IMG/VR virus record: IMGVR_UViG_3300020220_003517
Coordinates: 1-64,000 of that record
Origin: a virus
Length of the DNA stretch: 64,000 nt
Direction: 5' to 3' (one strand)
Shown here: piece by piece, positions 23,350 through 49,608 of the stretch
Layout: each line of letters opens with the position of its first letter
How positions within the stretch are numbered: the first letter of the stretch is position 1
The notes under the pieces: model-generated
What the model was told of the DNA's origin: nothing
What the model saw: only the letters and a program-made list of their open reading frames with translations
The model's database searches: none
Program-made: the position numbers and the translations under genes

Positions 23350-23541
23350 ATGAAAAAACGAGTACCTACGTTTGAAGATTTTATCGGCGACTTGGAGACA
23401 AGAAAACTCAGAAAACTCGCTGATCGCGAAGAAGAGAAAGACGGTGACGAGCTGTTCTTAGACCCTGATACGCAAAATCCTACTTACTACGGTGACGATG
23501 AAGAGACAGCTACTGCTGCTTATCCGTTTGGAGGAATATGA
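23350..23541 (+). CDS. small protein with capsid-targeting-like N-terminus
   Basis: This 63-residue acidic protein starts MKKRVPTFEDFIGDLE, a variant of the N-terminal peptide shared by eleven proteins here, with FIGD instead of FLNE at the cleavage-like position. The rest is charged and low in complexity. It overlaps the next gene, a paralogue in its N-terminus. Likely an internal head protein; this is inference. Confidence 0.62.
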   Translation: MKKRVPTFEDFIGDLETRKLRKLADREEEKDGDELFLDPDTQNPTYYGDDEETATAAYPFGGI

Positions 23542-23729
23542 AAAAACCTATAAAAACATTTGAAGAATTCATAGGTGACTTGCATGACAAGCATGTTATG
23601 AAAAAAGGCAAAAAGTACGCACATGGAAAAGAAGTCTTTTCCATAGACACAAATGAACCTGGCAAAGAATACGACCAAGAGAAAGACGGCAGTGATCAAA
23701 TCAATCGTTCTACTGTCCAAAGGTATTAA
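23538..23729 (+). CDS. small protein with capsid-targeting-like N-terminus
   Basis: This 63-residue protein begins MKKPIKTFEEFIGDLH, nearly the same leader as the preceding gene. The remainder is Lys- and Asp-rich (MKKGKKYAHGKEVF) and probably disordered. The ATGA overlap with its neighbour suggests a duplicated small packaged-protein pair. Confidence 0.62.
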   Translation: MKKPIKTFEEFIGDLHDKHVMKKGKKYAHGKEVFSIDTNEPGKEYDQEKDGSDQINRSTVQRY

Positions 23730-23740
23730 AAAAAACTTTA

Positions 23741-24355
23741 ATGCAGATAAACGTTTACAGTGATCACGGTGTAAGAGTATCTACTCCGTTGATATGGCAA
23801 GATTTTTTTGAAAGTTACTTGCCACACGCACAAGTTCATTATGTTTCAGCAAAAGACATTCTTCAAGGAAACCCTGATGCAATACTCTTCCCTGGGGGTT
23901 CTGCTAGCATCTTTGCCCGGACTCTGGGAAAAAGAAGATTAAGTAAGATCACTGAATGGGTTAAAAATGGAGGCCGTTACATAGGCGTTTGCGCGGGTGC
24001 ATATCTTGCATCAACTACATATTCTTGGTCTCTTGGAATTTCACCTGTAAGTATACATCGCAGGTGGAAAAGAGGTCATCATACTGTTAAGATACTAGTA
24101 GGATCGGAGTATCGTGACGTTGATTATTTTAACGGTCCGGTGTTTGAACAGTGGAAAAATGTGGACATTATTGCTCGTTACATGGATGACATACCTGATA
24201 CAGACGGTTTACATGACATGCCTACAACTCCAGCTATTATAAAGAATCGATGCGGTAATGGCAAAGTTCTTTTACTTAGCCCTCACTTAGAAAAAACTCA
24301 AGATCTCAAAGAATTCTTAGAATCACTTTTACTATCTTTTTTGAATGATAAATAA
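23741..24355 (+). CDS. BPL_N / class I glutamine amidotransferase-like protein
   Basis: This 204-residue protein has a flavodoxin-like alpha/beta fold with ILFPGGSASIFAR and the nucleophile elbow YIGVCAGAYLAS (Cys84), as in the N-terminal domain of biotin-protein ligase-like proteins and class I amidotransferases. A His (LSPHLEKT) near the end could complete the catalytic set. The family is poorly characterised, with a hydrolase or amidase role likely. It has no peptide leader of the packaged type. Confidence 0.75.
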   Translation: MQINVYSDHGVRVSTPLIWQDFFESYLPHAQVHYVSAKDILQGNPDAILFPGGSASIFARTLGKRRLSKITEWVKNGGRYIGVCAGAYLASTTYSWSLGISPVSIHRRWKRGHHTVKILVGSEYRDVDYFNGPVFEQWKNVDIIARYMDDIPDTDGLHDMPTTPAIIKNRCGNGKVLLLSPHLEKTQDLKEFLESLLLSFLNDK

Positions 24356-24375
24356 ACAAATTAAAAAAGAACATA

Positions 24376-24462
24376 GTGAAGAGAAAAATTTTAGAAATTT
24401 GTAGAAGAATACATAAGCAAAATAAATTCTTTGCTGTAACATCTAAAATAACTTCTGTATGA
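24376..24462 (+). CDS. possible 28-residue basic peptide (GTG start)
   Basis: A GTG at 24376 opens 28 codons (KRKILEICRRIHKQNKFF near the start) ending one nucleotide before the next ATG. It fills an otherwise empty 108-nt gap and resembles in size and charge the small peptide after the Ro60 gene. Evidence is only position and coupling. Confidence 0.25.
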   Translation: MKRKILEICRRIHKQNKFFAVTSKITSV

Positions 24463-24463
24463 A

Positions 24464-24820
24464 ATGAAACTAAAAATGATCGCAAGTTTGGAAAAGTTTT
24501 CCATCGCGCAGATGACATCAAATGCCAACGGTAAAACTTCTGGCTCTGGAACTATGGGCGTAATTATTTGTACTGTTGGAACTCTATGCTTTTTCTTAGG
24601 TTGCATTGACAAAATGTTTATCGGAAAAGACATTGATATCATAACGCAAGCCATCATATTTGTTGGCATCGGTGCTGCTCTTCTTGGGTACAGAAAATCA
24701 AAAGACGTATCAGGGGACATCGAAATCGCAAAATTGGAAAACGGTGCTCATGAAAACCAAATTTGTGATTGCCCCGAAGATTGCACTTGCGGTAACTGTG
24801 ATCGTTGCCAACCAAAATAA
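24464..24820 (+). CDS. two-span membrane protein with Cys-rich tail (holin candidate)
   Basis: This 118-residue protein has two hydrophobic helices, about residues 30-47 (MGVIICTVGTLCFFLGCI) and 59-76 (IITQAIIFVGIGAALLGY), and a C-terminal tail with seven clustered Cys residues in CDCPEDCTCGNCDRC. It lies 12 nt before the endolysin gene, the usual place for a holin. The Cys cluster is atypical for holins and may bind metal or form disulfides that control timing. Confidence 0.66.
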   Translation: MKLKMIASLEKFSIAQMTSNANGKTSGSGTMGVIICTVGTLCFFLGCIDKMFIGKDIDIITQAIIFVGIGAALLGYRKSKDVSGDIEIAKLENGAHENQICDCPEDCTCGNCDRCQPK

Positions 24821-24832
24821 ACTCACTAATCT

Positions 24833-25657
24833 ATGTTAATTAAGAAAGGATCTACAGGAGGCGATGTTAAACTCTTACAAGAAAAACTTGGTTTAACCGC
24901 AGACGGTTCGTTTGGACCAAAAACTGAAACAGCGGTTATTGCTTGGCAAAAGAAAAATGGCTTAACACCAGACGGAATAATTACATCAGGCAATGTCAGT
25001 TGGAAGTTAATGTTTGGTACACCGGAATTGCCGCCATTTACATCTACTGAATCAACTGGTCTAAAGATTAATGAACTCAAAGGTCACATATCTGATGCGG
25101 TTCTTGCGCAAATTCCTGAAACTGCTGCTAAATTTGGAATTACTACTAATTTACGTCTTGCGCACTTCTTGTCACAATGCGCTCATGAAAGTGGAAACTT
25201 TAAGGCAACTAGTGAAAACTTAAACTATTCTTCTAAAGGTTTACAAGCAACTTTTGGCAAGTACTTCCCGGGAAACCTTGCTGACTTATACGCAAAACAA
25301 CCTGAGAAGATAGCTTCACGAGTTTATGCCAACAGAATGGGAAATGGCGATGAAAAATCACGAGACGGGTATAAGTTTCGCGGTAGAGGTTATATACAAC
25401 TGACTGGTAAAAGCAATTACGAGTCCTTTACAAAATTCATCGGAGAAGATTGTGTTTCTAATCCTGATTTGGTAGCAACAAAATACCCGCTTGCTTCTGC
25501 TGCCTTTTTCTTTAACAACAATAAACTTTGGTCTATTTGTGATAGAGGTGCAACAGTAGCAGATATCACCGCTGTTACAAAGCGTGTGAATGGTGGAACC
25601 AACGGCCTTGACGATAGAATTAAACACTTTAACGAGTACTGGAGTTTACTTAAATGA
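24833..25657 (+). CDS. endolysin: peptidoglycan-binding domain plus GH19 lysozyme/chitinase
   Basis: This 274-residue protein has an N-terminal PG_binding_1 repeat (about residues 3-60, GSTGGDVKLLQEKLGLTADG with FGPKTETAVIAWQ) and a C-terminal GH19 domain from about 85. The predicted general acid is Glu119 in SQCAHESGNF; a second hallmark is KFRGRGYIQLTGKSNY. No signal peptide is present, so a holin is needed for export. The architecture is typical of phage endolysins against Gram-negative walls. Confidence 0.93.
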   Translation: MLIKKGSTGGDVKLLQEKLGLTADGSFGPKTETAVIAWQKKNGLTPDGIITSGNVSWKLMFGTPELPPFTSTESTGLKINELKGHISDAVLAQIPETAAKFGITTNLRLAHFLSQCAHESGNFKATSENLNYSSKGLQATFGKYFPGNLADLYAKQPEKIASRVYANRMGNGDEKSRDGYKFRGRGYIQLTGKSNYESFTKFIGEDCVSNPDLVATKYPLASAAFFFNNNKLWSICDRGATVADITAVTKRVNGGTNGLDDRIKHFNEYWSLLK

Positions 25658-25680
25658 AACACTTAAAACTAAAGTCCTAG
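25654..25680 (+). pseudogene. aborted copy of the packaged-protein leader
   Basis: An ATGA overlap with the endolysin stop begins MKHLKLKS and then stops. Its first 17 nt are identical to the start of the gene at 26532 (MKHLKLFEQ). It looks like a remnant left by duplication or recombination of leader-bearing genes. Confidence 0.4.
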
Positions 25681-25706
25681 TAGGAATACCTGAATAAATA
25701 AAAATT

Positions 25707-26513
25707 ATGAAATACGTTAAAACATTTGAAAGTTACATCCTAGAAGATTCGATGGAGATTCATGGAAGAGGTGATGTTATTCCTTTAAGTAAAGTTAACA
25801 AGAAAGCTGCTGATGCCTCAATTGGCAGAGGTGGTAAAGACGGTGATAAGAGAGATGATGCAGTTGCTGGGAAGAAAGTAAGCGTTCCTGTTAAAAATCT
25901 TCAAGCTGCCCAAACAGAGATTATCGCGGAAAAGGCTATTGGAATGGCTATTGGAACAATGCTAAACACAAAACCTGCAAAAATTGGTGGTGATTTAGGT
26001 TCAATCGTTTCTAAAGACAATTTTATTATGGATGGTCATCATCGTTGGGCTGCTACATTTCTTTGCGATCCAAGCGGAAAAGTTGAAGCAACACAAATTG
26101 ACTTACCTGGAGTATCCTTAGTATCTGCATTAAACACAATTACCGTTGGTATGTTTAATCGCGGTGGTAACTACGGAGACGGAGACATTAAAGATTTTAC
26201 CGGAAGAAACATTGGAAATCTTTTGGATAACTTTTTAGAGAACGGAATTCAAGGAAAGTTTCCTATTACACCTGAGCAAGTTAAAGAAAGCTTGAGTAAT
26301 ATGCCAGGAGCAGGTGGGGACTACGAAAAGGGTAAAGAGATTATGATGAAAAACGCTGACGCGTTGCCTAAGCAAATCATGCCAGGGGCCCCAGCACGAG
26401 TAGAAATGCCTGTAATTGGGCCGGACGAAGTTGAGAAAGTAAAACGAATGTTAGCTAATGGTGAGATTGATCTGACAAAACCATACAGCACCGACGTAAA
26501 CAAAGAATTGTAA
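25707..26513 (+). CDS. ParB/sulfiredoxin-like protein with capsid-targeting-like leader
   Basis: This 268-residue protein starts MKYVKTFESYILE, which matches the shared leader with a possible cut after ILE (I-x-E). The next part holds a ParB-type core: NLQAAQTEIIAEKAIGMA, then IMDGHHRWAAT, the classic ParB/Srx DGHHR motif. The C-terminal third is helical. ParB-like folds bind DNA or CTP or act as nucleases. If packaged in the head, this would be a DNA-acting protein delivered with the genome. Confidence 0.72.
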   Translation: MKYVKTFESYILEDSMEIHGRGDVIPLSKVNKKAADASIGRGGKDGDKRDDAVAGKKVSVPVKNLQAAQTEIIAEKAIGMAIGTMLNTKPAKIGGDLGSIVSKDNFIMDGHHRWAATFLCDPSGKVEATQIDLPGVSLVSALNTITVGMFNRGGNYGDGDIKDFTGRNIGNLLDNFLENGIQGKFPITPEQVKESLSNMPGAGGDYEKGKEIMMKNADALPKQIMPGAPARVEMPVIGPDEVEKVKRMLANGEIDLTKPYSTDVNKEL

Positions 26514-26531
26514 CATGAAAGCGCAACTCCT

Positions 26532-26993
26532 ATGAAACACTTAAAACTTTTTGAACAGTGGCTGTATGAAAAGAAACCTGCAGGCGCCCCTGAATGGAAA
26601 GATAGCGATGCACCTGATGCAGAAGGACGTTTTAGAGATTTAGGCATTGAGGATCTTGCTGCTTGGCTAATTAAGACTCGTAAAAAAGATCTTAAAAAGA
26701 TTAGCGGTAGTCTTACACAGCAGGTCGTCTTTAACCGCAATGATGATCCTGAATACGCAGAGAAAATGGAAAAAGTTCGTAAAGAGGTGTACAAGCAGCT
26801 TGGTCGAGAAGACTTACTTGACGAAAAAGAATCTCCTTATGATGAAGATACTCTTAAGAAGTATCAAAAGGAATACGAAGACGGTAAAGACATACCATTC
26901 GGTATAAGAGTCTCATTGATCGCGCAAGGCATGATACCCCGAGAAGGTGGACCAGATAAAGGCAAGAAAGTCAAGTCCCCAGACTACAAGTGA
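26532..26993 (+). CDS. putative internal head protein with capsid-targeting leader
   Basis: This 153-residue protein begins MKHLKLFEQWLYE|K, the shared leader ending in an L-x-E site. The mature part is highly charged, with AAWLIKTRKKDLKKISG and repeated Lys/Glu/Asp segments, and no known domain. The adjacent short frame at 26515 (MKAQLL) is probably meaningless. Confidence 0.68.
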   Translation: MKHLKLFEQWLYEKKPAGAPEWKDSDAPDAEGRFRDLGIEDLAAWLIKTRKKDLKKISGSLTQQVVFNRNDDPEYAEKMEKVRKEVYKQLGREDLLDEKESPYDEDTLKKYQKEYEDGKDIPFGIRVSLIAQGMIPREGGPDKGKKVKSPDYK

Positions 26994-26994
26994 G

Positions 26995-27003
26995 ATATAT
27001 ACT
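26995..27003 (+). promoter_or_regulatory. ATATATACT box
   Basis: This copy of the recurrent box lies 31 nt before the ATG at 27035. A GAAAATATAAAC stretch follows, so two promoter types may overlap. Confidence 0.4.
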
Positions 27004-27034
27004 CTGAAAATATAAACTATAAAACACAGTATAC

Positions 27035-27259
27035 ATGGCACATTGGGCTGTAAGAGTAAAAACCTCTGAGGAGGACATGGAAACTGGAAAGATTCGCAGT
27101 AAGTCTGAAACTTTCTTAGTAAGAGCAGAAACTATGGAAGAATCTCAACGTAAAGTTCGAGAGTACTTTCGTGGAATGACTATTGATTACGAACTTCGCG
27201 CCGTTAGCAAGAGTAACATAATGGGTTACATTGATAACGACGGTAATGCAACAGAATGA
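27035..27259 (+). CDS. DUF4494-like small protein
   Basis: This 74-residue protein has the pattern WAVRVKTSEEDMETGKIRSKSETFLVRAETMEE with a K-x-S/T-E-x-F/Y-L-V core, resembling DUF4494 proteins known mostly from Bacteroidota and their phages. Function unknown. It is one of the host-pointing features of the window. Confidence 0.62.
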   Translation: MAHWAVRVKTSEEDMETGKIRSKSETFLVRAETMEESQRKVREYFRGMTIDYELRAVSKSNIMGYIDNDGNATE

Positions 27260-27321
27260 CATTAGAAAAACTTTAAAACAAATTATATTGGTTACCCAAT
27301 AAGAAAATATAAAAACATACT

Positions 27322-28215
27322 ATGGGTCTTCTAGATTACGAATCTTTCTTGAATGAATCTGTTAATGAATCTGTTAATGCACAAAACATTTTTCAGTTCT
27401 TAACACAGTATATAGGATCAAGCGGTGCTAAGGCTGGGGCAACAATTTCTTATAGTGATATCTTGAAAGATAAGAAGTTTGCTGCTGATGACGGGCCTCT
27501 TTTGAATGAAGCAAACTTTTTTCATACGTTTGTTACAAATCTTGGAACAAACGCTAAAGATACAGCAGTAGGTGGAATTAGAACTTCAACAATAGCTGAA
27601 CATATAGTTGAAAAAGTATTAGGCGGGCAACAAACTAATCCTACGGCTGTTGGAGCAGCAGGCGCTGATTCGATTTTTTCTGACGTAAGTAAAGGAGATG
27701 AAAAGATATCAGTAAAAGCTTCTAAAAAGGCTGGTTTTTCTGGTGTATTAAGTATGTCTGCAATTAAAATTAATCAGATATTAAGTATTCTTTTTTCAAA
27801 TGGCTTATCTTCTACCATGGATAAAGACAAGCCTGAACAATTTAAGAAACTTAAAGAAAACACTCCACCTGACGCTATGTCAGGAAAGTATTCAATTGCT
27901 GCTGTTTATACTAGTGGCGAAAGCTGCGTAATTGAAAAAACTTCCCCAATAGACGCAAAAACTCTTTGGGATAATTGTGTTGCAACATTTAATACAAATC
28001 AGCCATTAGATAGCAAGTATTGGGAATCTCTCGACAGTGCAAAAAAGCTTTCTACTCTTGGTTTTTCTGTTGGCGAAACTTATACTATTGCAGGTCTTTC
28101 AGAAAAAGAAATTAATGATTTAGCAAACGTAAGAAACGTAATACTAAAGAAAATTGAAGTATTACCTACAGCCGAACTAAAAGACATTGCAGATTACAAA
28201 AAAATAAATTACTAA
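27322..28215 (+). CDS. putative packaged protein with duplicated NESVN leader
   Basis: This 297-residue protein starts MGLLDYESFLNE|SVNESVN, a leader variant with an L-x-E cut site followed by a repeated NESVN. The mature part is alpha/beta with ISVKASKKAGFSGVLSMSAIKINQIL near the middle, which might hold a restriction-endonuclease-like core (I-S-V-K), but this is not certain. An unusually long gap of 62 nt with A-rich sequence precedes it. Confidence 0.66.
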   Translation: MGLLDYESFLNESVNESVNAQNIFQFLTQYIGSSGAKAGATISYSDILKDKKFAADDGPLLNEANFFHTFVTNLGTNAKDTAVGGIRTSTIAEHIVEKVLGGQQTNPTAVGAAGADSIFSDVSKGDEKISVKASKKAGFSGVLSMSAIKINQILSILFSNGLSSTMDKDKPEQFKKLKENTPPDAMSGKYSIAAVYTSGESCVIEKTSPIDAKTLWDNCVATFNTNQPLDSKYWESLDSAKKLSTLGFSVGETYTIAGLSEKEINDLANVRNVILKKIEVLPTAELKDIADYKKINY

Positions 28216-28230
28216 CAAAAAACCAATAAC

Positions 28231-28425
28231 ATGGATCAAATCATCGCGTATTGTCTAAAGACAAAACAAAAGGAAGAAATGCACGAAGCTGTAATTTCTC
28301 GAACTTCTAAAGGCGGTTATATCGCAAAAGGTGTAACTAAGGACGGTCACAAGATGGCGCTTATTCTTTCAAAAGCTAATGCTGAATTGGCGGTAGAAAA
28401 AGGACTCGCTAAATTAGAAGACTAA
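28231..28425 (+). CDS. DUF5679-like small protein
   Basis: This 64-residue protein (IAYCLKTKQKEEMHEAVISRTSKGGYIAKGVTKDG) follows the outline of small DUF5679-type proteins but lacks their second Cys pair. It lies 15 nt after its neighbour. Function unknown. Confidence 0.6.
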   Translation: MDQIIAYCLKTKQKEEMHEAVISRTSKGGYIAKGVTKDGHKMALILSKANAELAVEKGLAKLED

Positions 28426-28523
28426 AAAACTTTGTGGAAGACACGCTAAGTCAAAGACTACAAACAACAAGAATTCGAAGAATTACGTTAAAAAGTACAA
28501 AGGCCAAGGCCGGTAAAAAAGAT

Positions 28524-28670: not shown

Positions 28671-28717
28671 TAAACGAACAGTTAGAATATCTTATCAAAG
28701 AGATTGATTGTGATAGA

Positions 28718-29143: not shown

Positions 29144-29144
29144 G

Positions 29145-29153
29145 ATATATAGT
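29145..29153 (+). promoter_or_regulatory. ATATATAGT box
   Basis: This variant of the recurrent box lies 18 nt before the ATG of the leader-bearing gene at 29172. Confidence 0.35.
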
Positions 29154-29171: not shown

Positions 29172-29501
29172 ATGGCATACATTAAACTTTTCGAAGAATT
29201 CTTAAATGAGAATTTAAATGAAGGAAAGAAAATTACCGTTATCACTTACGGTAATAAACAACATACATACACCGATAAAGATATTCAAGAATTCATTAAG
29301 GATCCTAACATATCGGCAGACAATCTTCCAAGTTGGTTGTATGGTGCTGGATTAAGAGGAGCCAATGGATTTCCTAGAAAACCTAAGCAAGTCGTAGATT
29401 ATCTTAAATTAATCCTTAAACATAAAGGGAATGTTACAATCAATGTAGCATCAGATAAACCTAGTTATCAACATTCTATCGTTTTTGAATCTAGTATATA
29501 A
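29172..29501 (+). CDS. putative packaged protein with capsid-targeting leader
   Basis: This 109-residue protein begins MAYIKLFEEFLNE|NLNE|G with two possible L-x-E sites. The mature part is a small alpha/beta domain without a known motif. It is followed by a terminator, so it ends a transcription unit. Confidence 0.7.
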   Translation: MAYIKLFEEFLNENLNEGKKITVITYGNKQHTYTDKDIQEFIKDPNISADNLPSWLYGAGLRGANGFPRKPKQVVDYLKLILKHKGNVTINVASDKPSYQHSIVFESSI

Positions 29502-32147: not shown

Positions 32148-33161
32148 AGTTTTACGAATTCTTTCCAGTTCTTCAAGAAGTTCATCTCGCTGTTTAACAG
32201 AAACCCAATCATAGTTACCACCTTCAAGCGTAGCGATAGGAATAACATAGTAGTGGTTATTACTTTCGTTCTTAACGGTTGCTATCGGTAAGAAGGTATA
32301 TCTTATATTTGAAAACCCATCACAAGACATTATCATAATGCACCCGCAGTTAGTAGTATAATGAGGAGGGTTCCACATGGTAGAAAAGAAATTTCCAAGT
32401 GAATAGACAATGATCTTTCCCTCTTCAAGAATTTCTGCACCTTGAAAGTAATGCGGATGTCCACCAATAACTACGTCAGCGCCAAAATTACTTACGGAAG
32501 CCAAGAACTCTCGTTGCTCGCTGGTGCTTGTTCGTTCGAGTTCTCTTGCATTACTTTTTCTAGATGATTGATGGACTCCAACAAAGACAAGTTCAGATCT
32601 CTCCTTCGCCAGATTAATCGTTTCCTGAGCTTGGGTTTTAGAGTAAAAATTGATGAGGTTTGTTGGTGTTTCTGGGGTATTAATTCCTTTGTAAATTGGG
32701 TCTTTCTTCGTTTCATTAATAAATTGTGTATAGTTTAGAAAAGATAATTTATGACCTTTTAAGTCAGCATCGAATGTTCTGCGAATTTTTGGTAAAGGAT
32801 TAGTTCCTACGTAATTTATACCAAATTCATCCAGTATTTCAATAGTCCTTTCAACTCCTTTTGTTCCAAAATCATAGCAGTGGTTGTTCGCAGTAAACAC
32901 AAGATTCACAAAACTACTTAGGTCATCCGCTAACAGATCATTCGTTGAAAATTTAGGATAACTGCTCGTTTCTCCACTAAAAGTTGTTTCAAGATTTCCT
33001 ACAACATAATCAGTGGAATACAGAAACGGCTTTATGAATTGGAATGGTTCATCATTGACAACTGACATAAGTGCGGAGTCTTCACACATTATGTCTCCAA
33101 GAAAAGCTATCTTAAAGACGCCTTTTTCTTTGCTGAACTTATCGAACGGTAAAACGTGCAT
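32097..33161 (-). CDS. CapA-like metallophosphatase (PGA_cap family)
   Basis: This 354-residue leftward protein has the PGA_cap pattern: FLGDIMCED, VGNLETTFSG, FTANNHCYDFGTKGVERTIEIL, VFVGVHQ, and VVIGGHPHYFQGAEIL with metal-binding His. The family includes CapA of poly-gamma-glutamate synthesis and related calcineurin-like phosphoesterases. In a phage it may modify cell-surface polymers or act on nucleotides. It heads the end of the leftward block of leader-bearing genes, overlapping the next by one nucleotide. Confidence 0.82.
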   Translation of the reverse strand: MHVLPFDKFSKEKGVFKIAFLGDIMCEDSALMSVVNDEPFQFIKPFLYSTDYVVGNLETTFSGETSSYPKFSTNDLLADDLSSFVNLVFTANNHCYDFGTKGVERTIEILDEFGINYVGTNPLPKIRRTFDADLKGHKLSFLNYTQFINETKKDPIYKGINTPETPTNLINFYSKTQAQETINLAKERSELVFVGVHQSSRKSNARELERTSTSEQREFLASVSNFGADVVIGGHPHYFQGAEILEEGKIIVYSLGNFFSTMWNPPHYTTNCGCIMIMSCDGFSNIRYTFLPIATVKNESNNHYYVIPIATLEGGNYDWVSVKQRDELLEELERIRKTLRDCSLIEEELPIHFF

Positions 33162-33460
33162 TAGTTTTCGTCCTTTAACATTCCGCCAGTTTTCATATCT
33201 CCTTGAACTGGTACTTCAATTTTCTTCTTGCCGCCTTCGCCTTTCATATAACCAAGAATAGCTTCCATGTTGTGTTCAGCGATAGTTATCTTGTCTTGCA
33301 CCCAGGCCTCAAGATCTTGGTCGTCGGTAACAAGGGATTTGATTTCTTCAGCGCTCTTTATGATTGTATCAAGAGATACTTTATACATTTTGCCTTCTGC
33401 TTCTTCATTGGTTTTGGTAGAATCACCAAGAAAGTCTTCAAACGTTTTAATGTTTTTCAT
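33161..33460 (-). CDS. putative internal head protein with leader variant FLGD
   Basis: The start at 33460 gives MKNIKTFEDFLGD|S and a 99-residue acidic/basic helical protein. The L-x-D in place of L-x-E may weaken or alter cleavage. It is the third of four consecutive leftward genes with the same leader. Confidence 0.68.
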   Translation of the reverse strand: MKNIKTFEDFLGDSTKTNEEAEGKMYKVSLDTIIKSAEEIKSLVTDDQDLEAWVQDKITIAEHNMEAILGYMKGEGGKKKIEVPVQGDMKTGGMLKDEN

Positions 33461-33485: not shown

Positions 33486-33797
33486 TCAAGACTCTTGCGC
33501 AATCATTGCAGTGATGATGTTTCCGTTAATAGTCTTAAACTGTTTCCAATAACGGATTGCCAAATCACCGATATGTTTTTCTGATGGTTTAGACACACGG
33601 TCCCCGCCGTCTGCTTCTGCTGCTTTGTTCCATGCAGCAATAGAATCGTCAACACACTTAATAACGTGTGACATATCTGTGCAAGGCTCGCTCATCCAGG
33701 CTTCTGCTTGTCCAGAAGTGTCTTCCGCGTAGTCAGACCAGTATGCAAGGCCGTTTGCCTCATTGAGGAAGTTTTCAAAGGTTTTTAGGTGTTTCAT
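33486..33797 (-). CDS. putative internal head protein with capsid-targeting leader
   Basis: The start at 33797 gives MKHLKTFENFLNE|A, matching the consensus leader exactly; an upstream ATG would add nine residues before it. The 103-residue protein has two Cys in the mature part and no known domain. Confidence 0.72.
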   Translation of the reverse strand: MKHLKTFENFLNEANGLAYWSDYAEDTSGQAEAWMSEPCTDMSHVIKCVDDSIAAWNKAAEADGGDRVSKPSEKHIGDLAIRYWKQFKTINGNIITAMIAQES

Positions 33798-33811: not shown

Positions 33812-34153
33812 TTATAGTGCCCATCCCATGCTTGCACCGTGTGAACCATAGAAATCATCGACTGCGCTGAAAACGAAAGTTAGACCTGAGTTATCTTTTC
33901 CAGGTTTAAGCAGTAGAACTTCCGAGCCGTGCGGGTCTGTAGTCCACTCGTACTTTACACGGGCTGCGCCCTTTTCACTTTTAATTGCTTTTTCAATTGC
34001 ATCTTTATCTACACCTTTATCAAAGGAGATCTGGAATTCATCTTGGTACGGCTTATCAAAAGGAGGAAGGATAAAGTTGATATTCTTTAGTTTAGATGTA
34101 TCAAAAGCCAGGGCTTCATTTAAGAAGTTTTCAAATGTGTGTATGTGCTTCAT
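33812..34153 (-). CDS. putative internal head protein with capsid-targeting leader
   Basis: This 113-residue protein begins MKHIHTFENFLNE|A. The mature part is a small alpha/beta fold (NINFILPPFDKPYQDEF) of unknown function. It lies 14 nt after the neighbouring gene. Confidence 0.73.
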   Translation of the reverse strand: MKHIHTFENFLNEALAFDTSKLKNINFILPPFDKPYQDEFQISFDKGVDKDAIEKAIKSEKGAARVKYEWTTDPHGSEVLLLKPGKDNSGLTFVFSAVDDFYGSHGASMGWAL

Positions 34154-34168: not shown

Positions 34169-34390
34169 TTAGATATCTGCTCCACCGTCTGAAGCAACGG
34201 AATCATCGGATGCGACGTCGTCATCGTCGTCATCGTCGTCATCGCTAACTTCTGCTGCATCGATTTCTTCTTCTTTTTCTTCTTCTTGTTCACCGCCAGC
34301 TTCAGCACGAAGATTCTTCTTAACAAGATCTTTTTCCAATTCATCAGCTTCTACCAAAAAGTCGGAAAAATTTAATACTCTTCTATTCAT
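34169..34390 (-). CDS. acidic prohead-core-like protein (gp67-type candidate)
   Basis: This 73-residue protein starts MNRRVLNFSDFLVE|A and then becomes a mainly Asp/Glu tail including a nine-Asp run. T4 prohead core protein gp67 is likewise short, has an FLIE cut site and an acidic Asp/Glu tail. The function as an internal core or scaffold component is inferred. The acidic run is encoded by a repeated GTCGTCATC unit at 34217-34244. Confidence 0.66.
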   Translation of the reverse strand: MNRRVLNFSDFLVEADELEKDLVKKNLRAEAGGEQEEEKEEEIDAAEVSDDDDDDDDDVASDDSVASDGGADI

Positions 34391-34408: not shown

Positions 34409-34417
34409 ACTATATAT
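34409..34417 (-). promoter_or_regulatory. ATATATAGT box, leftward
   Basis: Read leftward, this variant of the recurrent box lies 18 nt before the ATG at 34390, the first gene of the leftward block. Confidence 0.38.
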
Positions 34418-34445
34418 TCATGGTTAAGAATTGTATATGAAGGTG

Positions 34446-34454
34446 ATATATACC
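34446..34454 (+). promoter_or_regulatory. ATATATACC box for the baseplate block
   Basis: This copy lies 17 nt before the ATG at 34472, directly divergent from the leftward box at 34409. A back-to-back pair fits two divergent late units. Confidence 0.42.
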
Positions 34455-41905: not shown

Positions 41906-44900
41906 TGGATGAATTAAAAAAAGGGTGCGACTGCTGCGATGAACTATCTGATGATGCCAAAAGTGTATTAAATGAAATAAGTTCTCTTCTTGACCCCAAC
42001 GCAGGTAAGAATGCTAACGGCAGTGCTAACGGCAGTGCTAACGGCAGTGCTAACGGCAGTGCGCAAGATGACGCAGATAACTGTATTAAGGCATTCGCAA
42101 AGAAAGCACTGCCCGCAGTAGAAAACCCTAATGACAAAGATCGCATTTTAAAGTTATTAGAAGCAATCAATTCAGCTTTGAGTGGTGCTATTAGTGATAT
42201 TGTAAGTTTAACCAAAGAAGTTTTTTCGATTGACTTTGCTTCCTTAGATACTTCAAAAATACAAGCCGCTGCTAATTCAGTAAATAATCTATCTGACAAT
42301 CCTACGATTGATGTAAGTAAAGTACTTCCCGGTCTTGACACTAGTAAAATGAAAGATGTCAAGATTTCTCTGACTGTTCCGGCTATCACGCTGAACAAGT
42401 CTATCAATATGGGACCGGTTTCAATAAACTTGCGTTTTGCAATATCTACAAAAGAAGTTTCATGGGGGCCAGCTATCGACACAAACTTCAGTACTCCTAA
42501 GAAAGCTCTTGATGCTCTTAAAAATGATAAGATAAAATCTCTACTAACGCCTTCTGTTGGAAAGTCGTTAGAGGAATTAAAAGAAATAGCAAAAAAGGAG
42601 GTTAAAGATATTGCTATTCTAACAGAACTTTTAGCAGCTACTAACGCAGATATGTTTTTTGAGATATTGGAAAGGGAGGGAATTAATCTATACATAGAAG
42701 AAAACCTTGGTGATATTGCAGAAAAAATCTATAAAGACAATCTAAAAGCGGCTAAAGCGATTAAGAAAAACTTAAACAAAAAAGTTGGCAATTCGTTGGT
42801 TAAAGATCTTAAAGAAGTTGGTAAAATGGACTTGTGTGGAAAGAGACCTTCAAAAACCAAGAAATTTTCTACTGATGAAGTAGAAGAAGCGATACCTTGT
42901 GTTGTTCCCATTGAACCAGAGATACCTCTTGCAAACATAAAAGAAGTAGAGGATTTAATCAACGGTTTAAGTTTACCTAATCCTGAAGATGAACTAAATA
43001 AAATAAAAAACATGATGGCTTGTATAAAGAAAGCGCAAGACATTATGAATGAGTGTGGTAAGAAAAAAGTTAATGCTATAAACAGATACTATGCGTTTAA
43101 AGAAGTGGCTCTTTTACACGACTTGAATCACAAGTATGTATCAGAAAGAGCTACCACAAATAACTTATTGAATCCGCCGTTTATTGCGATAGCAAAAGAG
43201 AAGTCGTCTATAGAATCTCAGCTAGCGGATGTTACCGCAAAGCTGTTATCAACTAATTTATCCGCCGTAGAAACAGAAAATTTGAATGCACAAAAAAATG
43301 ATTTGGATCAATCATTAATTTCTTTACAAGAAGATTTTCAGAGTTCCGTAGACAACTTTAATGCTGGCCTTGAAGCTGAAATAAAAGATGAATTTGACAT
43401 TGCAGAATTTAATACATATGATTTTGAAGATTATGTAGAAAAGGCTCGAAAAAAAGTAAAAAGAACTACAAATGCTTTATCTAATCTTACAGGATTTAAA
43501 GATAACGGCAAGTCACTTGAACTGATTGTTACAAATCCCGAAATTAAAGGCAGGCTAGACTTTTTGCTAGCGCAATCTTTAAATGGCGCGCAAGACACAA
43601 TTTTTGACGGTTATCTTAAAGTTGATAACTATACATTTGTACCAGGAGAGGGACTACCAAGGACTGGTTTTTTAGAAAACGGACTTTGGAGAAAATACTA
43701 TTCTCCTAACCGTATAGATGACCTGTTTACATGGAAAGAACAAGGATACACAGGACCTAAACCACAATATGATGATCAGGGAAATGCTTTAGGTGCAAAG
43801 TCTACAGTAGAAATCAAGTCAGGCGACGGTTCTACCATAGTTCAAGAAGTACCAACTTCTGTAAAGAATTGCAACGTAGATCTAGCGATTGCTATTCCAT
43901 TTATTGAAAATTTAGAAGAACTTACGAGAGGTAAAATAAACTCTTTAGCGAATCAAATACTTACTAGCTCTGATGCCAAGCCTTACATAAAAAAAATTAG
44001 GTTTTATGCAAGGTTAGAAGCAAAGCTATCTTTTTATGATATGATAAGTTCTACCGATTTTTCTAGTATTAGCGTATCAAATTTTGAATCTTTTAATCCT
44101 GACAAGTTTATAAATGAATTAGACATTTCAAACAGATTTCTTAATAAATTACAAAAAGAGCTAAACTTTTTCGTTAAGACGATAGAAGAATGCAATACTT
44201 GTATAGAAGAGCAGAAAAAAGCTATTACTGCATGTGCAGAAAAGGCAGGAGGCGGTGATAGTTCACCTGGTACTGAAAAGAAATGCAAAGATCTTTTAGG
44301 AAGTGATCCTCTGGGTCTTAAAGGATCCAATGGCTGCCCCGATTACAAAAAGAATTGTTATTGGCGTGAATATACCAAGATTATGCAGATAGTAAGTCTT
44401 ATGCCGATACCTGACTTGATGTTCTTAAATAAAAGATTATTTAGATATTACCCAGTAGCTTTACAGATACCCGTTCCGGCCCCTATCCCTTCACTTGCAC
44501 TTGGAATACCCGACCCTGTCATAAGCATTCCCCTGCCATTCTTGTGGGTTCATCTCTTAACTTTGCATACATCAGTTGGTACTTTTGTGTTTTGGATTGG
44601 CGCAGCAGGGGGGATCATTCCTAATGTCTATGTAATGTTCATTGATGAAAAGCAACAAACTATTTTTGCTGTTACTCTCACAGGACCTAGTAAGATTCCG
44701 GATCCTTCTTTGGGAATTACCGAGTTTGACGAAAAAAGTCTTCTTGAGTTATTACCAGGTCTTGATACTACATTAAAAATTAATCTTACACAATTTCCGG
44801 GTAACCTATTTACAGGATCCACAAGACTTGATGTAAACAAACCAGATTCATCGAAAACTGTCATTGATAGCATAAAAGGTAAGATTAAGAAATCTGTAGA

Positions 44901-46491
44901 TGAACTAGTTATACCTGACCCACCTGTCTTTGGAGGATTTTCCCCCACTGCTTTGCGGATGAAAGACTTAATTAAGAATGCTTTAAAGTTTACTAACTGC
45001 GATAATGTAGAAGCAATTAAGTTGTCACTAAAAACTATTATAGAGCTTTTAATTGCAAGTTTGGATGGACTTGATGTACCAGGAATAAAAATACCGCGTG
45101 ACTCAAAGGGCATGATGATGGAGCTTCCCAGTGCGATTGCTATGCTTGACACTATTAATTCTTTGTTGAGTATTCTTAAGACAGCTCCGGATAAAGCAAA
45201 GAAGCTTCTTAAAGAAATAGGATTAAGTATAAACAACCCTTTTGATGTTACTGCTAAATTAAAGGAACTGGTTAGAGCCAATACATCGTATGCTGCATCG
45301 ATAGAAATCTTTTCTGAGTTCGACACAAAGATTGACGCACTTGAAGCTGAAGTAGATTTAGGAAGTCCTGAAGAAGCGGCTAAGAAGAGATTAGATTTAG
45401 TTAAAGATCTTTTAAAGAAGCAGATAGAAGATGCAATTAAAGATATAACCCCTGAGAAATTGGGTTTTGTTTCATCTGCAGATATCTTGGTATCTTTGCC
45501 CGAGCCGTGTTATACTAACGTTTCAATCCCCCCTCTTAACCCTGGAATATCTCTTGCTTTGGAAGCAATTAAGAATATACCCAACATTATTCTGGGTCTT
45601 AATGATGACTTGATACTAAAAGCACTTAGTAAAATTATTGACTTTGCTGTTCAGCTGCCTTCTGCTGAAGAATTATTTCAGCTTGGAATTAACTTGTTTT
45701 TGGACTTAATACCCCCTCTTGTTATCCCTATCGATATAAGTGTTTCTCTTCTTAAAGAGATTAAGATAGCTTTAAAAAACTTCATCGCATCATTTACCGT
45801 AAGATTGCCTAAAGTTGGTCTTCCTATACAAATAGAAATCCCTGGGACAAAAATTCTTTTTATCATAAAAAAGGCGTTAAAAGATTTCTTATCTTCTTTT
45901 AACGAGTTTGCGAACTGTTACATAAATCAAATATGCAAAAACTTAGGTACTTCTGCTGTTGCATCAAAGATTGCCGTTATTTTGAATATCATAAAGCTAT
46001 TGTTTAGCGTGAGTCTTGAACAAATATCAGGACCGGACATAAAAGCATTTTTGTTTTCTTTGCTAGAGACGATAGCATTTCCAGCGCTGGATGTTTTAGG
46101 TACACTTATAGACGCTGCTTCTAATCTTAAATCTCCATTTTTATCAATCATATCTCAATTCGTTACACCTGATCCTCCTAAACCAGAAGGGCCATTTTTT
46201 GAACTTAACCCCAAGTTAATAAAAGATTATGTAGATCCTATCATAAAAGGTGCTGCTTCGTTTACAAGCGAAAACATACCTTTTCCTGTAATACTTCTTG
46301 GGTGTGCTTTTCCAGCAACTCGAATTGCGCTTACAAAAATTCATCCATCGAAACCAAAAGAAGTCTTACCTGCATGGGAAGGGCTTTCGACAAAAAACTT
46401 TCCATTCATCATCTGGCTTGACCAGCTTGTCGCCACAGCACAAAGGAACGCTTTGTTAGGAAATAGCTATGTGGCACCATACTTTGCGTAA
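41905..46491 (+). CDS. giant virion protein (1528 residues) with Ala-Asn-Gly-Ser repeat
   Basis: The protein has a short Cys-containing N-terminus (KKGCDCCDELS), a four-fold ANGS repeat at about residues 36-52, long helical/coiled-coil parts and a central hydrophobic, Pro-rich region (IPVPAPIPSLALGIPDPVIS). It lies between the spike candidate and the S1 gene. It could be a tail-hub or tape-measure-like component, but the location of the tail genes does not settle this. It has no recognised enzymatic domain. Confidence 0.62.
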   Translation: MDELKKGCDCCDELSDDAKSVLNEISSLLDPNAGKNANGSANGSANGSANGSAQDDADNCIKAFAKKALPAVENPNDKDRILKLLEAINSALSGAISDIVSLTKEVFSIDFASLDTSKIQAAANSVNNLSDNPTIDVSKVLPGLDTSKMKDVKISLTVPAITLNKSINMGPVSINLRFAISTKEVSWGPAIDTNFSTPKKALDALKNDKIKSLLTPSVGKSLEELKEIAKKEVKDIAILTELLAATNADMFFEILEREGINLYIEENLGDIAEKIYKDNLKAAKAIKKNLNKKVGNSLVKDLKEVGKMDLCGKRPSKTKKFSTDEVEEAIPCVVPIEPEIPLANIKEVEDLINGLSLPNPEDELNKIKNMMACIKKAQDIMNECGKKKVNAINRYYAFKEVALLHDLNHKYVSERATTNNLLNPPFIAIAKEKSSIESQLADVTAKLLSTNLSAVETENLNAQKNDLDQSLISLQEDFQSSVDNFNAGLEAEIKDEFDIAEFNTYDFEDYVEKARKKVKRTTNALSNLTGFKDNGKSLELIVTNPEIKGRLDFLLAQSLNGAQDTIFDGYLKVDNYTFVPGEGLPRTGFLENGLWRKYYSPNRIDDLFTWKEQGYTGPKPQYDDQGNALGAKSTVEIKSGDGSTIVQEVPTSVKNCNVDLAIAIPFIENLEELTRGKINSLANQILTSSDAKPYIKKIRFYARLEAKLSFYDMISSTDFSSISVSNFESFNPDKFINELDISNRFLNKLQKELNFFVKTIEECNTCIEEQKKAITACAEKAGGGDSSPGTEKKCKDLLGSDPLGLKGSNGCPDYKKNCYWREYTKIMQIVSLMPIPDLMFLNKRLFRYYPVALQIPVPAPIPSLALGIPDPVISIPLPFLWVHLLTLHTSVGTFVFWIGAAGGIIPNVYVMFIDEKQQTIFAVTLTGPSKIPDPSLGITEFDEKSLLELLPGLDTTLKINLTQFPGNLFTGSTRLDVNKPDSSKTVIDSIKGKIKKSVDELVIPDPPVFGGFSPTALRMKDLIKNALKFTNCDNVEAIKLSLKTIIELLIASLDGLDVPGIKIPRDSKGMMMELPSAIAMLDTINSLLSILKTAPDKAKKLLKEIGLSINNPFDVTAKLKELVRANTSYAASIEIFSEFDTKIDALEAEVDLGSPEEAAKKRLDLVKDLLKKQIEDAIKDITPEKLGFVSSADILVSLPEPCYTNVSIPPLNPGISLALEAIKNIPNIILGLNDDLILKALSKIIDFAVQLPSAEELFQLGINLFLDLIPPLVIPIDISVSLLKEIKIALKNFIASFTVRLPKVGLPIQIEIPGTKILFIIKKALKDFLSSFNEFANCYINQICKNLGTSAVASKIAVILNIIKLLFSVSLEQISGPDIKAFLFSLLETIAFPALDVLGTLIDAASNLKSPFLSIISQFVTPDPPKPEGPFFELNPKLIKDYVDPIIKGAASFTSENIPFPVILLGCAFPATRIALTKIHPSKPKEVLPAWEGLSTKNFPFIIWLDQLVATAQRNALLGNSYVAPYFA
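42013..42060 (+). repeat. four tandem copies of a 12-nt unit (GCTAACGGCAGT)
   Basis: Four perfect copies of GCTAACGGCAGT encode Ala-Asn-Gly-Ser four times. Identity down to the codon suggests recent slippage; a 12-nt unit keeps the frame, so the copy number could vary between isolates without a frameshift. Confidence 0.85.
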
Positions 46492-46503
46492 AGAACTTGT
46501 ATG

Positions 46504-46512
46504 ATATATACA
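46504..46512 (+). promoter_or_regulatory. ATATATACA box
   Basis: This copy of the recurrent box lies 13 nt before the ATG of the S1-repeat protein at 46526, in a short gap that also contains GAACT. Confidence 0.4.
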
Positions 46513-46525
46513 AAAATCTAAAATA

Positions 46526-47722
46526 ATGAATACACAAAAAAACAAACAAGAAATTGATTGGGACAGACTCGAATCTGGTAAACGCAGAAAACCTAATCCT
46601 GAAATCTTAGCAAAGTATGGTGCTAAGAATTACTGCTTAGAACCATACGCACTAGATCTTTATGAGAAAATGATTCTTGGACAAGAAATCTTAAGTAAAG
46701 AACTTAGAGAAGGTGAGACAAGGAGAATCATTGCTGTTAGAGCAGCTAATAAGAATGAGGTGCATGTAATACTAGGCGGGCTGATTGATGGGATAGTAGA
46801 TCTTAAAAGAGAAAAAGGCTACTTAAACACAATTAACATGGATTCTGAAGGTTTTTCAGAGTATTTGAGTACCGAAGAAGGGCAAAACTACTTCTTAAAC
46901 CAGGAAATACAAGCCACCGTTGAGCAAGTTGAACCTTACGTTAAAGTTTCAATTTCAAGAGGGATGGAAGAAAAGATTAAAAGTGAATTTGTCAAGCAAA
47001 TTGCTAAACCAACATCGGCTTACATTGGTAAGATTCTTGAAAAGAATGGAGGCGGTTTTATCATATTTGTTGCGGGTATCAAAGGATTTTTGCCAGGGTC
47101 ACTCGCTGCTACAAATATCGTAAGAGATTTTGACAGTATGATAGGAAGAGAGATTCCTGTCGTTGTAGAAGATTATTTACGCGAAAGTAATACATTTGTA
47201 TTCTCGTATAAGAAATATGTGAGTATGATATTGCCTAGCAAAATTAGTGAGTTAGAGACCGACAAAATGTATACCGGAAGCGTTACTGGAGTTGCAAAGT
47301 ACGGTGTATTCGTTGAGTTTGATGAGATATTCACGGGTCTATTGCACACAAGCAAAATGACTCCAGAGATGAAGAAGAAGTTTACTGACCGTGAGATCAC
47401 GGCTGGAAATGAATTAACTTTTTGGATCAAAGAGATCACACCTGACAAGAAAATTATTCTTACAGATGAAGATCCCACGGCTAAAAGATTAGAACTTGAA
47501 GAGTTTAAAGAAAAAAATCTTGGAACTATTCGGGGTGGTGAAGTTATTTCAATTCAGCCGTTTGGTACATTGGTTAAGTTACAAAAAGATATCTGCGGAA
47601 TGATTTCTCAAAAAGAAATCAAAACAAAGAAAAAGAACTTTACGGTTGGAGACACAGTAATGGTCTCGATTGATAGAGTTCACAACGACAAAATTTTCTT
47701 ATCATTGCCAAATGAAGGTTAA
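46526..47722 (+). CDS. S1-repeat RNA-binding protein (ribosomal protein S1-like)
   Basis: This 398-residue protein resembles part of ribosomal protein S1. At least three S1 (OB) repeats are visible: about residues 155-225 with GKILEKNGGGFIIFVAGIKG, 250-310 with GSVTGVAKYGVFVEFDEIFTG and LLHTSKM, and 330-395 with GTIRGGEVISIQPFGTLVKL; an earlier degenerate repeat covers 60-115. S1 brings mRNA to the ribosome and is important where Shine-Dalgarno sequences are rare, as in Bacteroidota. A phage S1 could redirect translation or act in RNA handling. It overlaps the next gene by 11 nt. Confidence 0.84.
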   Translation: MNTQKNKQEIDWDRLESGKRRKPNPEILAKYGAKNYCLEPYALDLYEKMILGQEILSKELREGETRRIIAVRAANKNEVHVILGGLIDGIVDLKREKGYLNTINMDSEGFSEYLSTEEGQNYFLNQEIQATVEQVEPYVKVSISRGMEEKIKSEFVKQIAKPTSAYIGKILEKNGGGFIIFVAGIKGFLPGSLAATNIVRDFDSMIGREIPVVVEDYLRESNTFVFSYKKYVSMILPSKISELETDKMYTGSVTGVAKYGVFVEFDEIFTGLLHTSKMTPEMKKKFTDREITAGNELTFWIKEITPDKKIILTDEDPTAKRLELEEFKEKNLGTIRGGEVISIQPFGTLVKLQKDICGMISQKEIKTKKKNFTVGDTVMVSIDRVHNDKIFLSLPNEG

Positions 47723-49136
47723 AAAGAATTACACTAAGACTGAGGTTCTTGACAGCGCCCGTTGCGGATTCGAGTTTGAGTTTTACAGCTCGATGGATGT
47801 GTTTGAAACCGCTAAAGACATCGCAAAATTTGTAAAAAGAAGGGTAGTAGTGCCTCTTGCATTAAGTTCTATAACAGAACCTAAGCCTCTTTATCACTCT
47901 CCAGTAGCTCCTACTGCTGACATATTTAAACTAGAACCTGATTATTCAGGTGGTAAGAGTATGTGTGAGTTAGTCACTGGACCGATGAAATACAAAGATG
48001 CTCGCAACGTCTTAATTAAAGTCTTTGAATGGATCAGCAGTAATGGCTATACTAACGAAAGGTGTTCTATACACGTAAACATTAGTATTGATGAAAATGC
48101 GGTCCCTACCCGTTTTACTATTCCTAACATCAACATACCTAAGTTTATCTTATCTTTTGATGAGAAAAAGATATATGACATCTTTCCTAAAAGAGAAGGG
48201 AGTGTTTATGCTAGAAGTATTAAGTCTCTAAGACCTAACAGAGTACTTTTTTATTCTCCTACATTAGAAGAATTTAGTCGCGCCACCCTAACTCTTCCAG
48301 CTGACGAAAAGTACTATGGAGTTAACTTCTTGAAGGCGGAAAAGGGTTATCTGGAATATCGTTACCTTGGTGGTAAAGATTATGAAAAGACGACAAAGAA
48401 AATTCTTGACTTGGTCGATTACTTTATTCTTCATTTATATGATACGTTAAACTTTGAAGGATTTACTGACAAAGAAAAGGCGGACTTTAAAAAAATGACG
48501 GCCATTGACGAAAAGGTGTATAAATCTTTTGTTAAATACGAAGTTTTCCAAAAAGCGTTTCCTGGAATAGAAGTTGGGGTTGATATGAACGCAGACCCAC
48601 AAGTACTGGAATCTATGTGGGTTAACATTCGAGAAAAACTATTTGATCTTATAATTACAGGAAAGATGAAGAAAGGCGCCTTTAATTATGACAAAGAAAT
48701 TGGACGTTTTCAATTAAAGGACACCAAGTTGCGTAACTGCAAGTTAACTGACATGGAATTTATTAACTGCGAACTTGAAGGTGTTATTCATAGAGCATGG
48801 TTTTATGATTGTAAAATTAAGAACTCAAGGATACAAGACGGTAATTTTGTAAAAGGAAATACCGTTGATTTTAGTAAAATTTCTGAATGCGAGCTTCATA
48901 TTGATAATAAGCTTAATGACTGTTTTATAGAAAACAAGAAAAACATCATTAACTGTCAAGTTAACCGCGGTGTTATTCGAAACGGCGAAATTGGAAAACT
49001 TGCAAAAATTTCCAAAGAAACTATGATTGTTGAAGGTCAACCAATCGAAACAGGGAATTCGGGTGGTAATACATTTCAAGATGCTGCACAAGACGAAAAG
49101 AATAGAGAAAAGAATAAAGAATCCAAGAAAAAATAA
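47712..49136 (+). CDS. amidoligase-like enzyme with C-terminal beta-helix-like repeat
   Basis: The ATG at 47712 gives 474 residues. The N-terminal two thirds resemble the Amidoligase_2 (glutamine-synthetase/COOH-NH2 ligase) family: CGFEFEFYSS, SMCELVTGPMKYKDARN, CSIHVNISID, LEYRYLGGKDYEK. The remaining part from about residue 330 has short repeats (LRNCKLTDMEFINCELEGV, CKIKNSRIQDGNF) like pentapeptide or beta-helix repeats. The family ligates amino groups to carboxyl groups of peptides. The substrate could be a phage structural protein or the host wall. Confidence 0.72.
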   Translation: MKVKKNYTKTEVLDSARCGFEFEFYSSMDVFETAKDIAKFVKRRVVVPLALSSITEPKPLYHSPVAPTADIFKLEPDYSGGKSMCELVTGPMKYKDARNVLIKVFEWISSNGYTNERCSIHVNISIDENAVPTRFTIPNINIPKFILSFDEKKIYDIFPKREGSVYARSIKSLRPNRVLFYSPTLEEFSRATLTLPADEKYYGVNFLKAEKGYLEYRYLGGKDYEKTTKKILDLVDYFILHLYDTLNFEGFTDKEKADFKKMTAIDEKVYKSFVKYEVFQKAFPGIEVGVDMNADPQVLESMWVNIREKLFDLIITGKMKKGAFNYDKEIGRFQLKDTKLRNCKLTDMEFINCELEGVIHRAWFYDCKIKNSRIQDGNFVKGNTVDFSKISECELHIDNKLNDCFIENKKNIINCQVNRGVIRNGEIGKLAKISKETMIVEGQPIETGNSGGNTFQDAAQDEKNREKNKESKKK

Positions 49137-49141
49137 CCCTT

Positions 49142-49228
49142 ATGAGTAGTGGCAAGAGCAAAAAAAGAAAAACAGGGAATGCCTCGCAACCGGCGCACTA
49201 TGGCAAAGAACTTAAAAAGAATTCTTAA
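49142..49228 (+). CDS. possible 28-residue basic protein
   Basis: An ATG at 49142 opens MSSGKSKKRKTGNASQPAHY and ends at 49228. The frame overlaps another small frame (49179-49277). Only one of them is probably real; evidence is position and basic composition. Confidence 0.3.
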   Translation: MSSGKSKKRKTGNASQPAHYGKELKKNS

Positions 49229-49277
49229 AAATGAAGCTATTCTCAAAAAACTGAAAGCTGAATATGAAACACATTAA
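49179..49277 (+). CDS. possible 32-residue basic protein
   Basis: An ATG at 49179 starts MPRNRRTMAKNLKRILKNEA in a second frame and overlaps the next start by 14 nt, the coupling typical here. It is helical and basic. It competes with the preceding small frame. Confidence 0.35.
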   Translation: MPRNRRTMAKNLKRILKNEAILKKLKAEYETH

Positions 49278-49608
49278 AACATTTGAGAACTTTTTGAATG
49301 AAGGGCACTTGGACTTTAAGATTCAAAAATCACTACAATTAGGTGGTGTAACTTTCGAGTTTAATGAAGAGCTTACCGATGAAGACGATGATAATCGTTT
49401 TGATTTTGTTCAAGTTTACTATGCAGACGAAAGAAGAAACGGGAATGAGTGGGTGATTAAAGTAGGAACTACTGGTGAAGGTAATTACATCTTGGAAATT
49501 ATTGAAGACGAGAAAGTAGTTTTTACTCATGAATATCCCAAAAATCAACGCGCATACTTTGATCAAGATTGCATGAATAGCCTTGGTTTTTTACCTGAAT
49601 TAGATTAA
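49264..49608 (+). CDS. putative internal head protein with capsid-targeting leader
   Basis: This 114-residue protein starts MKHIKTFENFLNE|G, a perfect leader. The mature part is a small beta-rich acidic domain (VTFEFNEELTDEDDDNRFDF). It sits alone among tail genes, far from the other members. Confidence 0.74.
   Translation: MKHIKTFENFLNEGHLDFKIQKSLQLGGVTFEFNEELTDEDDDNRFDFVQVYYADERRNGNEWVIKVGTTGEGNYILEIIEDEKVVFTHEYPKNQRAYFDQDCMNSLGFLPELD

Follow-up and report, generated by a model that had tools for sequence, protein, structure and literature searches.

Eleven predicted proteins encoded between positions 23350 and 49608 of the window, i.e., the first 64 kb of the 83,672-bp metagenome-derived virus record IMGVR_UViG_3300020220_003517, start with a common leader of 13 residues with the consensus MKxIKxFExFLNE, and the sequences behind the leader are unrelated among the eleven. 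Judged by its sequence, the leader belongs to a real and large family of T4-type capsid-targeting sequences (CTS) in huge phages, which is a much expanded form of a known system. We consider it highly probable that the leader is such a CTS, by which the cargo would dock on the prohead core through mimicry of scaffold repeats, and that it is cut after [LIV]-x-E. The first-pass annotation of this DNA had proposed eleven leader proteins, and all eleven open reading frames (ORFs) were found to be present. They are listed below and are referred to by their start positions; G- and L-numbers denote the contigs and records that were compared, G000 being the contig of the window and W01 the record LR756500.

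23350..23541, + strand: leader protein of 63 amino acids (aa), MKKRVPTFEDFIGD, D-ending; homologue in G012, MKNIIKTYEEFIGD
23538..23729, + strand: leader protein of 63 aa, MKKPIKTFEEFIGD, D-ending; 4-bp overlap with gene 23350
25707..26513, + strand: leader protein of 268 aa, MKYVKTFESYILE, with a DGHHRW-motif ('ParB-like') domain; phrog_2859, 2.5e-9
26532..26993, + strand: leader protein of 153 aa, MKHLKLFEQWLYE; body common to G002, G005, G006, G013, and G021, with the leader in all
27322..28215, + strand: leader protein of 297 aa, MGLLDYESFLNE, then SVNE after the predicted cut; homologues in G002 and G012
29172..29501, + strand: leader protein of 109 aa, MAYIKLFEEFLNE, then NLNE (double site)
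33161..33460, − strand: leader protein of 99 aa, MKNIKTFEDFLGD, member of a conserved family
33486..33797, − strand: leader protein of 103 aa, MKHLKTFENFLNE
33812..34153, − strand: leader protein of 113 aa, MKHIHTFENFLNE
34169..34390, − strand: leader protein of 73 aa, MNRRVLNFSDFLVE, with a strongly acidic tail; orthologue in G023
49264..49608, + strand: leader protein of 114 aa, MKHIKTFENFLNE; leader-bearing orthologues in G023, G013, and G006

A strict N-terminal regular expression recovered ten of the eleven leaders and had no other match in the window. The eleventh, that of 27322, lacks the MK..IK half and was found by a profile. No more leaders were found in contig positions 63000-82999, and a profile scan of the entire 83.7-kb contig returned the same 11. 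Alternative in-frame starts lie upstream of 33797 and 33460, but translation probably begins at the leader in both.

The leader was then looked for in related contigs. Among the predicted proteins of six contigs, profile matches were located at residue 5 in 4.5% of the proteins as compared with about 4e-5 per internal position, and the enrichment of the leader at protein starts in related contigs was approximately 1000-fold. In eleven contigs, the profile identified 180 leader ORFs, while only 3 were obtained with reversed N-termini as a control. They were distributed as 51 in G007 (482 kb), 27 in G002, 21 in G005, 18 in G006, 17 in W01, 16 in G013, 11 in G000, 10 in G004, 6 in G012, 3 in G008, and none in G010; 18 were found in the closely related G021 (71.5 kb). 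A strict degenerate DNA pattern, independent of the profile, gave 23 matches in G007, 20 each in G002 and W01, 11 in G005, and 9 in G006, and when read backwards none in 16 records and one in each of two later contig searches. The leader family is far beyond chance. The leader genes of G007 are grouped mainly at 147-158, 201-205, and 458-470 kb (L176-L200 are listed with this contig), and its 51 members make up the largest predicted capsid-targeted set among the contigs scanned.

The bodies behind the leader are highly diverse, the 119 distinct leader proteins falling into 88 families with 70 singletons, and in an alignment of 100 leader proteins the conservation was restricted to MKxIKxFExFLNE. 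In the 140 leaders that are 13 residues long, position 7 was F or Y in 139, position 10 was F, Y, or W in 139, position 13 was E or D in 134, and position 11 was L, I, or V in 123. At the DNA level, 139 of the 140 were distinct, with the third codon positions free. As the residues at positions 7, 10, 11, and 13 are kept despite differing DNA, the sequences indicate that selection on the leader acts at the protein level. The leader is also retained in orthologues despite divergence of the body, as seen for 49264 in three contigs, for 26532 in five, and for 25707, whose relatives carry MKYVKTFESYLLE, YYKKFQKFINE, or MKHIKTFESFIAE down to 35% identity. Some leader genes do form paralogous arrays (DUF285 and LRR families), and leader genes cluster, which could mean that the common N-termini are leftovers of gene duplication or of recombination hotspots without any role in targeting. 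However, with so many body families, leaders kept on diverged bodies, and constrained residues encoded by differing DNA, this explanation is scarcely credible. A protein of 601 residues in G006 (170136-171941, − strand) starts with a leader and has another leader-like motif, QTFEEFVNE, at residue 314, so that it resembles a fusion of two leader proteins.

The first-pass annotation had likened the eleven proteins to the internal proteins of T4, and both the ranking by the profile and the constrained positions support the likeness. In the T4 record, IPII and IPIII begin with MKTYQEFIAE, and the top 9-mer of the leader profile lies in this sequence in both; in gp23, the top 9-mer is QAFGSFLTE, followed by A, at the end of the propeptide. 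The most constrained leader positions, 7, 10, 11, and 13, correspond to positions 4, 7, 8, and 10 of the T4 CTS, where mutations of residues 4 and 7 mainly affect targeting and those of residues 8 and 10 processing (PMC9026906). As here, IPI, IPII, IPIII, and Alt of T4 start with a short leader in which two aromatics, the second three positions after the first, precede [LI]-x-E, and the T4 internal proteins have varied, unrelated bodies with conservation only in the leader (PMC3012670). The likeness extends to an S77 protease and a gp23-type capsid protein, which here are found in relatives. On the other hand, the leaders are mostly of 13 residues with an MKHIK-type start, while the T4 CTS has 10 residues; up to 51 leader members are found per contig in contrast to the three internal proteins and Alt of T4; the cargo includes recognisable enzyme-like domains, unlike the T4 internal proteins; and a single protein with tandem leader-like repeats combines the protease and the scaffold, for which T4 has the separate gp21, gp22, gp67, and gp68. 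All testable sequence features place the leaders in the T4 CTS family, with the exception of a protease in the same genome, the contig being fragmentary.

A gp21-type prohead protease had been expected in the complete genome. This was borne out in leader-bearing relatives, where S77 and Gp23 lie side by side, whereas the contig of the window is a fragment without capsid genes. In G005, an S77 domain (PF03420, 2.7e-12) adjoins a Gp23 gene (PF07068, 3e-38), and S77 is present in the leader-bearing relatives G003, G005, G007, G012, G013, and LR756500; in G013, the protease and 16 leaders are on a single contig. The motifs GEL[DN]HP and SSR, which surround the expected catalytic residues, are common to the S77 proteins of the relatives and T4 gp21. 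The propeptides of the capsid proteins adjoining the protease end in L-[NY]-E (HYHSLNE/GF, HALNE/A, HNLYE/D, and HELYE/N, with the predicted cut at the slash), i.e., in these relatives the capsid propeptide site is the same as FLNE of the leaders. The protease itself is in this group the N-terminal part of a protein of 587-693 residues, the scaffold-like tail of which carries, in most leader-bearing relatives, tandem repeats of about 14 residues (YSEYLAENLDKSIS...) with the leader-like motif YSEYLAE:

L052:9224-11065, − strand: S77 prohead protease with a scaffold-like YSEYLAE-repeat tail; also L114-L147

With a loose definition of the motif, 18 of the 22 fusions examined had 7-14 copies, compared with 0.1-0.2 in shuffles, while the fusion tails of a more distant group (L143, L144, L145, and L147) were without it. 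Strict copies in the fusion numbered 9 in G005, 7 in G013, 4 in G012, 13 in G007, and 14 in G008, and the other proteins in those proteomes had at most 3. The protease of G010 is from the motif-less group, and this contig has neither repeats nor leaders. In T4, it is the CTS by which internal proteins associate with the core (PMC5694885), and mimicry of the scaffold repeat by the leader would accordingly be the most straightforward explanation. The protease-scaffold fusion is a candidate for the giant-phage counterpart of T4 gp22, which was unconfirmed as of PMC5694885. We lean towards the view that a single peptide code serves head assembly, in which core repeats of the YSEYLAE type, leaders mimicking them, and a fused protease cutting all of them at [LIV]-x-E act together.

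Secretion and import tags likewise look like a common N-terminal address on otherwise unrelated proteins, and LRR, PAP2, and LicD-like cargo can be membrane or envelope associated. Nevertheless, it is very improbable that the leader is a host-directed address (secretion or membrane) or an import tag of a phage compartment that is unrelated to the capsid. It is without the hydrophobic core of a signal peptide, its conserved aromatics and terminal L-x-E match the T4 CTS and the capsid propeptide, and in most of these proteomes it is the prohead protease-scaffold protein that gives the best internal match.

Regarding cleavage, the leader ends in E in 8 of the 11 window proteins, but in D in the remaining three (23350, 23538, and 33460). 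Among the 180 leaders of the group, the terminal residue was E in 157 and D in 17, the next residue was mostly A, S, or G, and the P3 residue was L, I, or V in 162. Leader length was 10-16 residues, and a second [LIV]xE close behind the first was found in 23 leaders. In T4, a CTS with D at position 10 allows targeting but blocks processing (PMC9026906). For this reason we read the D-ending leaders as probably packaged, and the three -GD variants of the window are probably targeted but not cut there, in line with the earlier suggestion that the FLGD/FIGD variants may be uncut. These leaders, in the window and across the group, and the T4 result could also be taken to mean that the leader in general is an uncut docking tag, with the proteins packaged leader-on and tethered to the core or shell. 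This is improbable as a general explanation, given the predominance of E followed mostly by A, S, or G, the same L-N-E at the end of the capsid propeptide, and the frequent double sites, all of which argue for a T4-type CTS that is cut.

In such a system, the leader proteins would dock on the prohead core late in infection, probably via the leader imitating the approximately 14-residue YSEYLAE-type repeats of the protease-scaffold fusion. After closure of the shell, the S77 protease would cleave the major capsid protein, the scaffold repeats, and the leaders, in each case behind [LIV]-x-E. The freed cargo would remain in the head and would probably be injected into the host along with the DNA and act there at an early stage. 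Here we infer docking, packaging, cleavage, and injection, as well as the presence of S77 in the phage of the window itself.

A number of observations weigh against this interpretation. The leader profile was built from the window's own eleven leaders. Clean cleavage does not fit every member, as 3 of the 11 leaders in the window end in D and the site is often shifted in relatives of 33460 (KVNEE, TLNEE). W01 has about 17 leaders but only two strict scaffold copies, and the 245 kb of G008 hold 14 copies but just 3 leaders; a simple dosage relation between scaffold repeats and leader number was considered and rejected, since the two are not proportional in these contigs. The protease is known solely from relatives, and neither a gp23-type capsid gene nor an S77 gene was matched anywhere on the 83.7-kb contig, although these absences say little for a fragmentary contig that does not include the capsid genes. 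Finally, for the putative late promoter presented below, the reversed pattern was also enriched in several relatives, where the exact form and orientation are uncertain.

Other phages are known to process or target head proteins. In the giant phages phiKZ and SPN3US, similarly to what is proposed here, a diverged gp21-like protease cuts head proteins, among them inner-body and ejection proteins, behind glutamate, and such proteins are ejected (PMC5694885, PMC9026906). However, the phiKZ sites are S/A-x-E, in contrast to the [LIV]-x-E that ends the 13-residue leader, and in SPN3US most inner head proteins have propeptides longer than 100 residues and without a common short leader; the leader set does not match the phiKZ type with its S/A-x-E sites and long propeptides. 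An N-terminal signal of DarB in the P1 Dar system sends a large anti-restriction protein to the head, as proposed here, but the Dar proteins have no common consensus leader (PMC9024508). LR756500, the Lak phages, and the freshwater Bacteroidetes bS21 phages are huge myoviruses, as here, and LR756500 has a leader flavour of its own, MKYIKEYEEFILE. No match to the 13-residue leader pattern was found in the records of Lak-A1 and the 735-kb LR756501, nor in those of P-SSM2, Syn9, RaK2, PAU, and PTm1. A T4-spaced pattern had 0-4 matches per record in the latter five and Lak-A1, which shows no comparable arsenal, and we found no capsid-targeting arsenal described for such huge phages in the open-access papers searched.

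To get an idea of the candidate functions of the cargo, the bodies were compared with several databases. In the pooled leader set, Pfam identified LRR and DUF285 repeats, PAP2, cytidylyltransferase-like, R2K ATP-grasp, PNK3P, LicD, GNAT, and DUF2201 domains. Repeat-protein paralogues, each with its own leader, were seen for LRR in W01 and for DUF285 in G005. The eleven bodies of the window had no credible Pfam match, and Pfam and PHROGs together gave almost nothing for them; PADLOC on the pooled set gave a single weak match, and the PDB sequence search only chance-level matches. AlphaFold models of 25707 and 27322 had a mean pLDDT of 36 and 43, respectively, and were too poor for a fold search. 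The ParB-like domain ascribed to 25707 did not hold up well, as it matched neither a ParB nor a sulfiredoxin family profile (no Pfam ParB match at E-values up to 1) and only the PHROG match and the DGHHRW motif speak for it; the ParB label is weakly supported. The DGHHRW-type domain is shared with Ackermannviridae proteins, some of which are annotated as 'structural protein'. The body of 27322 contains a conserved AD.IFSDV...EK.SVK.SK, for which a PD-(D/E)XK nuclease was considered and not adopted, the motif having no further support. The acidic 34390 is reminiscent of the T4 core protein gp67, and some leader proteins, such as this one, may belong to the core and not to the injected cargo.

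By its gene content, the record that includes the window is part of the genome of a large and probably huge T4-type myovirus. Among named phage records, the best matches of the baseplate wedge protein (50721-52415) are in the 462-kb uncultured phage LR756500 (38.5% identity), Lak megaphages, and 635-735-kb phages. Further genes have matches to baseplate, hub, and head-tail components of the T4 type, and 49264 lies directly upstream of gene 49616, which matches a head-tail adaptor.

In the contig of the window, 11 of the 12 [AG]ATATATA[GC] elements lie 12-85 nucleotides upstream of an ORF (baseline 0.195, p 1.6e-7). The putative late-promoter elements are:

23338..23346, + strand: GATATATAC, upstream of the 23350/23538 pair
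29144..29152, + strand: GATATATAG, upstream of 29172
34410..34418, − strand: AATATATAG, upstream of the leftward group 34390-33161
34445..34453, + strand: upstream of the structural gene 34472
window 38982, 46503, and 50664: upstream of 38995, 46526, and 50721 (baseplate wedge), respectively
contig 64896 and 79114: two further elements

The genes preceded by the element include two fibre-like genes and, in G013, the protease gene. None of the listed copies lies in the first 22 kb, the region of metabolic and glycosyltransferase-like genes. It was also enriched in G002, G005, G006, G007, and G013, whereas the GATATATA[GC]-type element was not enriched in W01 or G010; the promoter motifs of T4 (TATAAATA) and of Bacteroidetes (TAnnTTTG) were not enriched upstream of leader genes. 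Common to leader, protease, and baseplate genes, the element looks like a late promoter. The window also encodes an ECF-type sigma-70 factor (4014-4613), a candidate for the factor that recognises the GATATATA late element.

Other genes were observed in passing. The window encodes a TROVE (Ro60-like) RNA-binding protein (2224-3849; PF05731, 1.2e-10), a C5-cytosine methylase at 11838, and, between 5958 and 20470, a long series of genes that by eye resemble nucleotidyltransferase or glycosyltransferase genes. Two tandem SET-domain proteins (PF00856) are located at 62126-62976 (− strand), and a further SET-domain gene (L052:4820-5302, − strand) lies near the capsid gene in G005.

If our interpretation is correct, huge environmental phages deliver tens of proteins at infection, an order of magnitude above the internal proteins of T4, and the leader would permit the cargo to be listed from sequence alone, also for uncultured phages. 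T4 IPI blocks GmrSD (PMC3012670), and IPIII is needed on ECOR17 (PMC9391042). Since those T4 internal proteins studied so far act against host defences, such lists would consist of candidate counter-defence or takeover proteins. The repeat of the protease-scaffold fusion also suggests how a CTS may be recognised, on which the cited literature offers little beyond an affinity for the core. Should one peptide code indeed serve the whole of head assembly, new virion cargo could be added merely by gaining a leader.

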